This document shows, piece by piece, positions 5,094 to 60,840 of a stretch of DNA of 64,000 nucleotides (position 1 is its first letter; each line of letters begins with the position of its first letter). Location: contig NZ_JAMQJY010000001.1 of assembly GCF_023703085.1 (NCBI RefSeq), positions 558,001 through 622,000 of the forward strand, read 5' to 3'. Both the position numbers and the translations under genes were made by a program. The notes beneath the pieces are model-generated. The model searched no databases. It had not been told where the DNA came from and saw only the letters and a program-made list of their open reading frames with translations. This stretch comes from Alkalicoccobacillus plakortidis. GTDB taxonomy: Bacteria; Bacillota; Bacilli; Bacillales; Bacillaceae_D.

Positions 5094-5709
5094 ATGAAAA
5101 GACTCGTATTTTTTGTATTAGCAGGCATGATTGCGTTAATTGCGCTGTTTATCTATTTATTTGACTCAAATAATCAAGTCAGACAAATAACATATAAAAC
5201 GGTTATTGGTCAGCATCAAATCCCAGAAAAGTTTGTGCCAGTTTATGAGGAAGCTGCTGAAGAATACGATATTCCATGGCAACTACTTGCGGCAGTCCAT
5301 CGTGTTGAAACGATATTCTCGACAATGAATCCAATGGAAAGTCCTGTTGGCGCACTTGGTCCTTTTCAGTTTATGCCTAGAACGTGGGTTGGCTTGGTCT
5401 CATCCAGGTGGAGATGTTGGTGAGTTGGATGATGATGTAGATATTACTGACCCTGAGCTCATTAGTGAACATAATGGGTATGGTATGGATGTGTCGGGAA
5501 ATGGTGTAGCCGATCCTTTTGATATTTGGGATTCAGCCTATGCTGCAGCTTCCTTTCTTGCGGACCACGGTGCTGAAGAAGGCGACTTGGAGGGAGCGTT
5601 ATTTTCCTATAACAGAAGTGATGACTATGTAAATGAAGTGATGAGTTATTACAACGCCTATATTGAAAACTATGAATTGATTACCATTCCACTGGATAAA
5701 GAAGAGTAA
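5094..5709 (+). pseudogene. Lytic transglycosylase-like cell wall protein, frameshifted
   Basis: The gene encodes an N-terminal membrane anchor (MKRLVFFVLAGMIALIALF) and a lysozyme-like SLT domain that cleaves peptidoglycan. The catalytic-region motif ALGPFQFMPRTWVG is visible. The frame then breaks: after TWVG the downstream frame continues WSHPGGDVGELDDDVD and on to the natural end. One extra T in GCTTGG at 5392-5397 accounts for it; removing it restores TWVGWSHPG, a known pattern in this family. The ATG follows AAAGGATG. Because the same indel occurs in essential genes here, a sequence error is more likely than true decay. Confidence 0.75.
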
Positions 5710-5736
5710 TATCTAAAAGTTGGAAATTGTTAAAAA

Positions 5737-5880
5737 GAGGCCGGGAAAGAAATATACGTGTAAACGATAAAGACGAATCAACCATTTAAAATTTTCAGGT
5801 TGATTCGTCTTTTTATTTTTAATTTAAGTAGCAGGTGATGATCGGCGGGGTATCTCCGCTCCCGGGACGGCTCCAAGCCT
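5737..5880 (+). repeat. Intergenic terminator-palindrome element, copy 1
   Basis: This element lies between the convergent transglycosylase and lipoprotein genes. It begins with GAGGCCGGGA at 5737, related to the end motif of the copies near 23580 and 51421. A perfect 13-base stem follows (5771-5783 with 5798-5810) ending in a T-run, which is a good intrinsic terminator for the upstream gene. Beyond it, CTCCGCTCCCGGGA near 5846-5862 matches the edge of the palindromic core seen in other copies, but the rest of the core is degenerate. Confidence 0.65.
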
Positions 5881-5979
5881 AATCTGGATAACGCAACCTC
5901 ATTTCAACAGCTCAATCCAGCAAAGTGGTGAGATGGATCATTATCGTTTTCTACTCATTTGTTGTCCCCTACTTACACC

Positions 5980-6156
5980 TTATTGATTTGTATAAACAGG
6001 ATCTTCGTCTTGCTCTTCTACTTCTACGGGTGGAATATATGATGGTTCATTTTTAATTTGAATTTGTTTTTCATTTGAACCTTTTTGACCAATGTCCGGA
6101 AGAGAACAGCCTGTTAATAAAACTGAAACAATTAATCCAATTATAAATCGCTTCAA
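5980..6156 (-). CDS. Small lipoprotein of 58 residues
   Basis: A TTG-started reading frame with AGAGAGGG as ribosome site encodes a short positively charged start (KRF), a hydrophobic stretch and the lipobox LLTGC, with the acylated cysteine at residue 17. The mature part is about 40 residues, polar and acidic (VEVEEQDEDP). This is the layout of a secreted, membrane-anchored lipoprotein of unknown role. It lies 18 bases downstream of the GGDEF gene on the same strand, so it may be cotranscribed with it. Confidence 0.6.
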   Translation of the reverse strand: MKRFIIGLIVSVLLTGCSLPDIGQKGSNEKQIQIKNEPSYIPPVEVEEQDEDPVYTNQ

Positions 6157-6174
6157 TAGAACCCTCTCTTTTCA

Positions 6175-57719: not shown

Positions 57720-59714
57720 TTATTGAAGCAACGATTTAGCTCGTGCCACAACATTTTCAACTGTAAATCCATACTCAGCTAGAATTTCAGAGCCTTTACC
57801 AGATGCGCCAAAGCGGTCAATCGCAAGAATTTGTCCTTCATCTCCAACATAACGGTCCCATCCTAATGAGGAGCCAACTTCAATTCCTAAACGAGCTTTA
57901 ATATTTTTCGGAATGACGCTGTTTTTGTATTCTTTTGATTGTGCTTCAAAACGATCCAAGCTCGGCATACTTACGACATTTGCAAGAATACCTTCTTTTT
58001 CTAGTTCTTTTTTCGCCTCAACAGCTAGTGCAACTTCTGAACCAGAAGCAAGAAGTAGAAGATGTGCTTCTCCATTTGCTTCATCAATCACGTACGCACC
58101 TTTTTTTGTTCCTTCGTACGCATTTTCAGCTGTTCCTTCAAGAGTCGGAAGGTTTTGGCGGCTTAATACAAGTGCTGTCGGCTGATCTGTTGATTCTAAT
58201 GCTAATTTCCATGCAGCTGTTGCTTCATTTCCATCAGCCGGACGAATAATAGAAAGATTCGGCATTGCTCGTAGTGCAGCCAGTTGCTCAACCGGTTCGT
58301 GTGTTGGACCATCTTCTCCAACCGCGATACTGTCATGAGTGAACACATACGTAACAGGAAGTCCCATTAATGCAGCTAATCGGATAGCCGGACGTAGGTA
58401 GTCAGAGAAAACAAAGAATGTTCCTCCAAATACTTTTAATCCGCCATGTAACGCCATTCCATTAAGTGCTGCTCCCATTGCAAACTCACGTACACCAAAC
58501 CAAATGTTACGACCATCGTACTGGTCACGACTGAAGTTATCTTGGCCTTTTAACGTTGTGTTGTTAGAACAGCTAAGTCAGCAGAACCACCAAATAATTG
58601 TGGTACGTTTTTAGCAAATGCATTTAATGCTTGTCCCGCAGATGCACGACTTGCCACACTTGTACCCACTTCATGAACGGGTGCATCTTTGTCCCAAGCC
58701 TTCAGGTAGTTTTCCAGCGATCGCTAGTTCATACTCTTTAGCAAGCTCTGGGAACTCAGCCTTGTAGCTTTCAAATAATTGATTCCATTCTTTTTCTTTA
58801 TCAGCGCCTTCTTCAACCACACGAGCAAACAATTCAGCCGCTTCGCTAGGAATATAAAAATCGCCTTCGTAGTCCCATTTATATGCTTCTTTTGTTAATT
58901 TCACTTCATCGGCACCCAGTGGTGAACCATGAGAAGCAGATTTTCCTGATTTATTTGGTGAACCAAAACCAATTGTCGTTTTCACTTCAATTAAAGTTGG
59001 ACGATCATCAGCCTTAGCCGATTCAATGGCTTCAGAAATCTCTGTCACATCATTTCCATCTTCCACACGAATCACTTGCAAGCCGTATGCTTTGTAACGA
59101 TCTTCTACACTCTCTGAGAAAGAATGATGTAGATCTCCATCTAATGAAATATCATTAGAATCATACAGCACAATTAAACGGCCTAACTTCAGATGACCTG
59201 CAAGTGAAGCAGCTTCAGCCGAAATCCCTTCCATTAAGTCACCATCACCACAAATACTATAAGTGAAATGGTCGACAACTGGGAAATTTGATTTGTTATA
59301 AGTAGCTGCAAGATGTCTTTCAGCCATTGCCATACCAACTGCCATTGCAACACCTTGTCCAAGTGGGCCAGTTGTTGCTTCTACGCCTGGTGTATGACCA
59401 TACTCAGGATGTCCAGGTGTGCGACTTCCTAGCTGTCTGAACTGTTGAAGATCCTTTAAGCCTAAATCATAACCTGTAAGGTGCAAGAGGCTATATAAAA
59501 GCATCGAGCCGTGGCCAGCAGACAAGACAAAACGGTCTCTGTTACTCCACTCTGGATTACCAGGATTATGATTCATAAATTTTGTCCATAAAGCAAAAGC
59601 CATTGGTGCAGCTCCCATCGGCATTCCTGGGTGACCCGAATTGGCTTTCTCAACACTATCAATAGACAATGTGCGAATCGTATTTATTGCAATATTTTCA
59701 GCATTTGTAGACAT
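57720..59714 (-). pseudogene. tkt: Transketolase, two compensating frameshifts
   Basis: Transketolase moves two-carbon units in the pentose phosphate pathway. The N-terminal half has [12 protein letters not shown] and the ThDP motif [14 protein letters not shown]; the C-terminal half has DSIAVGEDGPTHEPVEQ. Between them, one extra T at CCAAGC (58694-58699) and one missing C at AACAGC (near 58570, expected AACCAGC) put about 40 codons out of frame; repair gives [14 protein letters not shown] and GGSADLAGSNNTTLKG. Net length is unchanged at 664 residues. The start at 59714 fits the GGGAGG upstream. Sequence error is likely. Confidence 0.92.
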
Positions 59715-59812
59715 ATGTATGTTCATCCTCCCGTAGATCATTATTTTCTTTTTTCTCCCTCATCATATACAATCTACATCAATTTCACAAGGTCAGACAA
59801 CTATCAATAATA

Positions 59813-59844
59813 ACAAAAAAAAGAACTAGTCTAAAAGCTAGTCC
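59813..59844 (-). terminator. Terminator of ynzC
   Basis: GGACTAG and CTAGTTC pair on the minus strand (one G-T pair) and are followed by eight or nine T residues. Confidence 0.82.
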
Positions 59845-60087
59845 TTAATGAGTATTCCCGTTATTACGTTTTTTACTTTCCTTAAGTGCCTCAGGGGTCA
59901 CATCCGTGCCTTCTTCATCAACAACCGTGACAGAATGTAACTGGTTTTTAAATGAATTTCTAAACCCTTTTAGATATTCCGCACGTAATTCTTTTTGTTC
60001 TTTTGCTTCTGAAAGTGTTAAGCCACTCTCCTTCGCCTTTTTAGCTAGTTGATTAATCCTGTTTAATTTATCTTGATGAAGCATCAT
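59845..60087 (-). CDS. ynzC: YnzC family protein (DUF896)
   Basis: The 80-residue protein has the two-helix DUF896 motif KLNRINQLAKKAKESGLT and EAKEQKELRAEYLKGFRNSF, with a variable tail. In B. subtilis ynzC lies in the SOS-regulated yneA-yneB-ynzC operon; the same order is kept here. The exact ATG among adjacent candidates is uncertain. Confidence 0.9.
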   Translation of the reverse strand: MMLHQDKLNRINQLAKKAKESGLTLSEAKEQKELRAEYLKGFRNSFKNQLHSVTVVDEEGTDVTPEALKESKKRNNGNTH

Positions 60088-60161
60088 AAACACTCACTTT
60101 CCTGAACATATCTTATGAGTGGTATGTTACCATGACTAATCGCAACCGGCAAATTCAATGC

Positions 60162-60840
60162 CTAATTCTTCTCATCTAGTTCGCGCTTTTGATTCTTCAT
60201 ATATTCCTGATATCTTCTATGAACGGTCGCTTTTGATAAGTTATACCCAAGCCCTTTTAATGTTGCAGAAATATCATAAAAAGCTAAGCCACGTTCCCGC
60301 AGACGGATAATCTCCTGAAGTGGGACATCTAGACGGTCTCTTCCTCCACCACCTAAACTGGAGAAATTTTGCTCAGGATGATAGCCTTCAGCCATCGCAC
60401 GTCTCATTCCTCTTCTTATTTTAAGATTATGAAGCTTCCTTTGATATTCCTCAACAATTGAGACGATACTTAAAACCATTTCATCAGCTTCAGATAGTTG
60501 CATGCGGTCCTTATCTTGCAATGTATAAACCTGTATACCATATTTCTTTAGCTGATAAAGAAGAGCCATTCTGGCATGTCCTCTTGCTAGTCGTGTTTCA
60601 TCTTGAATCACAAGGCAATCAAACGCCTTCTCTTTTGCTAAATCGAGAATCGTTAATAGTTCTTCTCGATCTATTTCATACCCACTTGCTTTTTCCTTTA
60701 TTGACTTAACGAGAGTCCAAGCCCTTTTCTTCAACCATTAATGATAACTCTTGATGCTGTCTTTCAAGCGATGTTTGTTGTTCTTCTTTCTCCGTGCTTA
60801 CCCTGCTGTAAATGATTACTCTATTCGTTGTCTGCACCAT
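60162..60840 (-). pseudogene. yneB: Serine recombinase-family protein YneB, frameshifted
   Basis: The product has a resolvase-type catalytic domain with the serine in IIYSRVSTEKEEQQTSLERQ and the arginines in [10 protein letters not shown], and a short C-terminal helix-turn-helix-like part. The frames join when one A is removed from CCAAGC (60717-60722), giving [20 protein letters not shown]. It belongs to the SOS-controlled yneA operon and its start lies inside the end of yneA. The role in B. subtilis is unknown. Confidence 0.87.

Follow-up and report, generated by a model that had tools for sequence, protein, structure and literature searches.

Why should so many genes within a single stretch of the Alkalicoccobacillus plakortidis genome be broken in frame at variants of one word, GCTGG (CCAGC on the opposite strand)? 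The stretch, hereafter the window, comprises 64,000 nucleotides (C1:558001-622000) of the A. plakortidis genome (G000), whose assembly holds 4,366,190 bases in 9 contigs; G001 to G004 are congener genomes. An earlier note on the window had attributed the breaks to motif-specific base-calling error. The comparisons presented here support this claim well: the frame breaks are consensus errors at GCTGG/CCAGC, not mutations, i.e., an artefact of a known kind. DNA modification is likely to be their cause, and the explanation we favour overall, which we regard as quite probable, is long-read (most likely nanopore) consensus error at this motif due to 5-methylcytosine (5mC).

Frame breaks in the window

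The breaks located at or near the motif are given below by position in the window, strand and affected gene, where gaps refer to alignments against the congener G002 and ORF stands for open reading frame.

5392..5397, + strand: GCTTGG in SLT transglycosylase-like ORFs 5061-5423 and 5347-5709; tblastn frame change from frame 3 to frame 1
16810..16815, - strand: GCTTGG in a queD-like gene; one-base gap, frame change, QueD family match
18010..18015, + strand: GCTTGG in the gene named aminopeptidase by the earlier note; one-base gap, frame change
26590..26595 (approximate, to a few bases), - strand: GCCTGG in a QoxA-like gene (cytochrome aa3 quinol oxidase subunit II); frame break
35629..35634, - strand: GCTTGG in the gene named ykuI by the earlier note; one-base gap, frame change
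38538..38544, + strand: GCCTGG early in the gene named metA by the earlier note; G002 reads GCTGG
41274..41279, + strand: GCTTGG, first of two in a yneQ-like gene; frame change at 41279-41295 against ORFs of several relatives (tblastn)
41418..41423, - strand: GCTTGG, second of two in the yneQ-like gene; frame change at 41400-41425 against ORFs of several relatives (tblastn)
48733..48738, + strand: GCTTGG in citB (aconitase); one-base gap, frame change
52353..52358, - strand: GCTTGG in a GNAT acetyltransferase gene; one-base gap
58570..58575, - strand: one base fewer within GCTGG in tkt (transketolase); gap
58694..58699, - strand: GCTTGG, one base more, in tkt; one-base gap, frame change
60717..60722, - strand: GCTTGG near the frame break of yneB (resolvase-like); tblastn frame change at 60727-60734, Resolvase match

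All ten GCTTGG insertions listed by the earlier note coincide with, or are close to, a frame break relative to related genomes, as seen in gaps against G002, in tblastn or in both. Its reading of another one-base insertion in the metA pentamer and of a lost base within GCTGG at tkt 58570 held as well, while the site at 26592 in the QoxA-like gene and the C-to-T substitutions described below had been overlooked. In the QoxA-like gene, the gap is placed at 26592 and the frame change at 26582-26589, and a family match supports the naming. Both pieces of citB match AcnA, and the pieces of tkt match transketolase, with the deletion and the insertion in this gene jointly restoring the same frame. 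In-frame homology starts only at residue 11 (position 38539) in metA, and ends at residue 110 of 132 in the GNAT gene, where G002 has no CCAGC; at the ykuI site G002 does not read GCTGG either. The first piece of the transglycosylase-like gene (5061-5423) presents an SLT match below the Pfam cut-off, and the gene at 18010 received no NCBIfam name at 1e-20. In yneB, the nucleotide aligner places the gap at 60702, and the break positions of the two methods are 15-25 bases apart.

In the window, GCTTGG occurs 46 times against 22.5 expected from shuffled sequences, none of 100 shuffles reaching 46, and GCTTGGA occurs 25 times against 7.1. GCTGG itself is near expectation (60 observed, 64.2 expected).

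Frame events against a congener

By protein, the closest relatives among the genomes searched are A. murimartini (L001) and A. gibsonii (L002). The comparison was carried out between 800 kb of the A. plakortidis chromosome and 400 kb of G002, the two presenting 84% identity across a 5.8-kb piece. G002 ORFs with 120 codons or more served as anchors: 258 of 357 were aligned to A. plakortidis DNA, and uncompensated gaps were scored. Filtering removed 40 of 109 gaps, which were either at most 60 columns from an alignment end or duplicates, and 69 frame events were kept. The final counts refer to a non-overlapping set of 244 of the 258 ORFs, with 248,112 nt and 68 internal frame events; over all 258 ORFs they differ slightly (38 of 49 insertions at GCTTGG, and 41:9 for the C-to-T changes). 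One-base gaps from a whole-region blastn alignment, 52 of whose 337 insertions are at GCTTGG, were dropped as too noisy, given they take in intergenic and diverged stretches.

Among the 48 one-base insertions, 37 read GCTTGG, 3 read GCCTGG, 2 are beside GCTGG and 6 are motif-free, whereas at random columns GCTTGG, GCCTGG and GCTGG are found in 0.71%, 0.24% and 2.45% of cases, respectively. Of 17 one-base deletions, 7 are beside the motif and 10 away from it, and the 3 larger events are all without it. Frameshifts equally common at unrelated pentamers, the outcome the earlier note held to contradict its claim, were not found: among pentamers with at least 30 occurrences, GCTGG/CCAGC ranks first for one-base indel rate (20 of 387 sites; overall, the rate averages 0.1%).

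In the reverse control, with A. plakortidis ORFs compared against G002, the one-base insertions in G002 number 9, and none of them reads GCTTGG. This control yielded 19 internal events on 279 ORFs, counted without de-duplication and on ORFs that are themselves shortened by the errors; by our comparison, 6 of these events repeat sites of the forward analysis, viewed from the opposite side.

Both strands are affected, as the earlier note had stated, with 22 and 16 of 38 GCTTGG insertions on the two strands of the assembly. The recurrence of a single hexamer at many breaks could also be expected from programmed frameshifting or recoding at GCTTGG, to which we assign almost no probability, since both orientations relative to the gene occur (21 sense GCTTGG and 17 sense CCAAGC) and, in part of the genes, the break falls at a different variant of the word or at a deletion of it.

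The family names of the broken genes point to error in the sequence. For 20 of the 36 G002 genes with an insertion in the A. plakortidis copy, family names were examined, and three were nameless at the thresholds used. The named genes include PolC, chorismate synthase (aroC), RNase Y, glutamate synthase, 6-phosphogluconate dehydrogenase, aconitase and transketolase. The A. plakortidis polC is split into two ORFs, one matching positions 3-814 and the other 836-1444 of a single PolC model. In Bacillota, PolC is indispensable to the living cell, and polC, aroC, citB and tkt cannot all be lost together. Given that all four are broken, the breaks are sequencing error and not biology, and the earlier note's claim of base-calling error in place of gene loss is upheld. 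Users of this genome would miscall hundreds of genes, essential ones included, as pseudogenes.

Genome-wide word counts

Across the A. plakortidis genome, GCTTGG occurs 3178 times (728 per Mb), in comparison with 2029-2375 times in the four congeners (507-544 per Mb, using rounded genome sizes). The excess over the congener prediction is about 855, and the errors at the motif run genome-wide. GCTGGA, on the other hand, is found 1581 times against 2036-2328 in the four congeners, a shortfall comparable to the GCTTGG excess. The ratio of GCTTGG to GCTGGA is 2.0 in A. plakortidis and 0.53-1.10 in 20 other genomes, namely the four congeners and 16 chosen from the order, whose sequencing platforms may differ. 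In comparison with the 400 kb of G002, no pentamer is more depleted than CCAGC and no hexamer more enriched than GCTTGG. AT-rich words present z-scores similar to those of the motif in this comparison; therefore, word counts alone were set aside and replaced by alignment. In the genome as assembled, GCTTGGA is found 501 times in forward and 719 times in reverse orientation.

The earlier note placed most hits at GCTGGA, which is about half correct: the base after the motif is A at 20 of the 39 sites with an insertion and at 33 of the 102 intact sites. For C the figures are 1 of 39 and 23 of 102, hence the error, or the mark, is sensitive to the following base. A motif longer than GCTGG was sought, and only this bias against a following C emerged.

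A weakness of the base-caller or polisher in the GCTGG context, with no modification of the DNA, would agree with this dependence on the following base, and also with the fact that the consensus, in which errors and not marks are demonstrated, is what was examined. We consider it unlikely, given that the GCTTGG to GCTGGA ratio is abnormal in A. plakortidis alone among 21 genomes, weak evidence as the other platforms may differ, and that the errors of a published case at the same pentamer were traced to modification (PMC10687267).

C-to-T substitutions

Apart from insertions, there are 40 sites where G002 reads GCTGG and A. plakortidis GTTGG, and 9 with the reverse. None of the other 168 NCNNN contexts tested is as strongly skewed, with p = 7e-5, or about 0.01 once the number of contexts is allowed for. 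At the codon level, GCT is changed to GTT (Ala-to-Val) in 9 of 165 cases before GG and in 10 of 1950 before anything else, an excess of about elevenfold at the motif. After an unchanged CCA, Ala is replaced by Thr (CCA-GC to CCA-AC) in 7 of 34 cases; with other preceding codons the figure is 44 of 3158. The motif's other C-to-T or G-to-A changes are balanced (4:2, 9:7 and 4:3). The affected base is thus the C of GCTGG, and it is probable that this base is 5mC, half-read as T.

The substitutions are read as miscalls because selection would purge most such amino-acid changes, whereas miscalls are unfiltered. Genome users would mistake these silent miscalls for amino-acid changes. Real motif-specific mutation, by deamination of 5mC or by a mutator and leading to true pseudogenes, could likewise yield GTTGG from G(5mC)TGG, and deamination may account for a share of the GTTGG excess. 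As an explanation of the whole it is highly improbable: deamination inserts no bases, polC, aroC, citB and tkt are broken simultaneously, and the changes at conserved Ala residues are unfiltered by selection.

Candidate methyltransferases

In the mechanism we propose, the cell would methylate the C of GCTGG to 5mC, and a base-caller untrained on this mark would misread a good part of the sites. The result would be an extra T (GCTTGG) or a C-to-T change (GTTGG) and, less often, an extra C or a dropped base. The enzyme writing the mark would be one of four C5-methyltransferase loci, with a tandem pair first in line. PF00145 (C5-methyltransferase) has four matches in A. plakortidis, one in G001, and none in G002, G003 and G004. 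The loci are as follows.

C1:2593245-2595666 (outside the window): tandem pair of C5-methyltransferase genes, intact, adjacent and on the same strand
L080:9500-10666, - strand: first methyltransferase of the pair, 388 aa, PF00145
L080:8245-9489, - strand: second methyltransferase of the pair, 414 aa, PF00145
L081:8836-9897: third C5-methyltransferase locus, intact, among apparent prophage genes according to ORF translations
L082:9514-10264: fourth C5-methyltransferase locus, broken into two overlapping frames with GCTTGG in the overlap, among apparent prophage genes

The earlier note had further suggested methylation at the motif and an active methyltransferase. The error part of this suggestion stands, and methyltransferase genes are present; methylation itself is inferred from the C-to-T class, the methyltransferase inventory and the Listeria precedent with the same pentamer.

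A different mark on the same word, N6-methyladenine on CCAGC, is written by the type III methyltransferase ModD1 (M.Nme579I) of Neisseria meningitidis, whose target is CC(m6A)GC, m6A being N6-methyladenine (PMC13248616). A ModD1-like enzyme in place of 5mC is very unlikely in A. plakortidis, whose genome has no match to PF01555 or PF02086 and a single weak match to PF02384, which is common to all five congeners. Moreover, the substitution observed is C-to-T at the C of GCTGG, so that the pentamer is shared with ModD1 while the affected base is not.

As for 5mC, the tandem pair is the best candidate, and a reasonable one, for the enzyme that would write it. Two C5 enzymes in tandem would fit an asymmetric word, one serving each strand, as in LlaJI of Lactococcus lactis, which has two C5-methyltransferases for the asymmetric five-base site GACGC (PMC1459862). 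Should the pair be the enzyme, GCTGG is expected as its target instead of GACGC. We tentatively propose, as a possibility rated below an even chance, that the pair is of restriction-modification type and marks G(5mC)TGG, a GCTGG/CCAGC specificity that has no assignment in the literature found, and that a relative could explain the modification in Listeria R20-0026. If this is true, word errors in a draft genome suffice to reveal what an unstudied enzyme recognises.

Several points weigh against 5mC written by one of these loci as the source of the errors. What was examined is consensus sequence only, from which we infer the platform, the identity of the mark as 5mC and the writing enzyme. Frame events without the motif amount to 19 of 68, and the z-scores of AT-rich words match the motif's, so word counts alone are not decisive. 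The C-to-T context was noticed first and tested afterwards, and its Ala-to-Val and Ala-to-Thr cases are non-independent, being subsets of the same 40 sites. In addition to the weak PF02384 match, A. plakortidis has two below-cut-off matches to PF07669. Finally, across 396 other genomes of the order, 9 have a strong homologue of the second methyltransferase, and the GCTTGG excess is absent in the 8 of these 9 carriers that were counted (53-76% identity) as well as in 8 hand-picked non-carriers; this lends the pair no support, although the carriers may differ in target site and sequencing platform.

Comparison with known systems

The phenomenon is already known, even for the pentamer GCTGG/CCAGC. 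In 2023, Listeria nanopore genomes were reported to be spoiled by modifications on which base-callers were untrained, and demodification of low-quality genomes by whole-genome amplification removed such errors (PMC10687267). In L. monocytogenes R20-0026 (ST1081), modification-mediated nanopore errors were found at GCTGG, for which the available portion of the paper names no enzyme. It was the only paper found in a literature search on GCTGG, methylation and nanopore. The two cases agree in the pentamer and in errors that run genome-wide through the assembly. They differ in genus and in that the paper counts mismatches, whereas the A. plakortidis frame breaks are mostly one-base insertions, accompanied by C-to-T changes. 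The Listeria errors come from nanopore data, whereas for the present assembly this platform is presumed. A paper describing nanopore-only (R10.4.1) assemblies of new cleanroom species, Shouchella included, offered no connection with it.

What is new is the C-to-T class and the methyltransferase shortlist for the A. plakortidis genome. This second case at a pentamer left without a named enzyme in Listeria narrows the search to clonable C5-methyltransferases. It also illustrates how a finished draft and a single congener can suffice for suspecting a modification and guessing the modified base.

PMC10687267 also discusses an M.BatI-type GCDGC enzyme (PMC8936443), an orphan C5-methyltransferase tied to Listeria nanopore errors at a related pentamer. 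Its target is GCWGC/GCSGC, not GCTGG, and the likeness is one of description only.

The tandem pair resembles LlaJI in gene layout. As in LlaJI, two adjacent C5 genes stand in the same orientation with a PD-(D/E)XK gene nearby; a putative AAA/GTPase-type gene is also close. Unlike in LlaJI (PMC1459862), there is no four-gene cluster: a 232-aa gene and some 1.35 kb separate the pair from the putative AAA gene and the nuclease gene, and the opposite flank of the pair carries an HNH gene.

The surroundings of the pair (L080:2875-12107) hold genes for an HNH nuclease, a putative AAA protein and a DUF2357/PD-(D/E)XK protein, and may be a small defence island. The HNH protein has a below-cut-off match to a phosphorothioate-DNA restriction family; the 494-aa protein of the putative AAA gene, which would be the counterpart of an McrB-like GTPase subunit, has AAA matches only below cut-off, plus a PDC-M26A match; and the 602-aa protein matches DUF2357 and PDDEXK_7. 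The stretch of about 1.35 kb between the pair and the 232-aa gene, L080:6893-8244, has no large ORF; it contains a 58-aa ORF that may be the remnant of an IstB-type ATPase. Elsewhere, the Lactococcus plasmid p275D encodes a homologue of the first methyltransferase (65.8%), accompanied by another C5 gene and a gene for a PLD-type nuclease. A search of phages with the second methyltransferase returned nothing above 49% identity.

Other sites in the window

The earlier note had also explained breaks in an ABC transporter gene and a transposase by losses within the motif.

54615..54620, - strand: frame break in the ABC transporter gene; 2-base difference, frame change

The break in the ABC gene is real. 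Its attribution to a loss within the motif is uncertain, since the difference is of two bases and G002 does not read GCTGG there. The transposase (13171-14621) consists of two ORFs, a DUF772 and a DDE piece, with an intact CCAGC in between, and had no homologue (at about 13711) in the DNA searched. At about 56057, one G002 ORF corresponds to two window ORFs (54992-56047 and 56044-56802), with a one-base difference off the motif.

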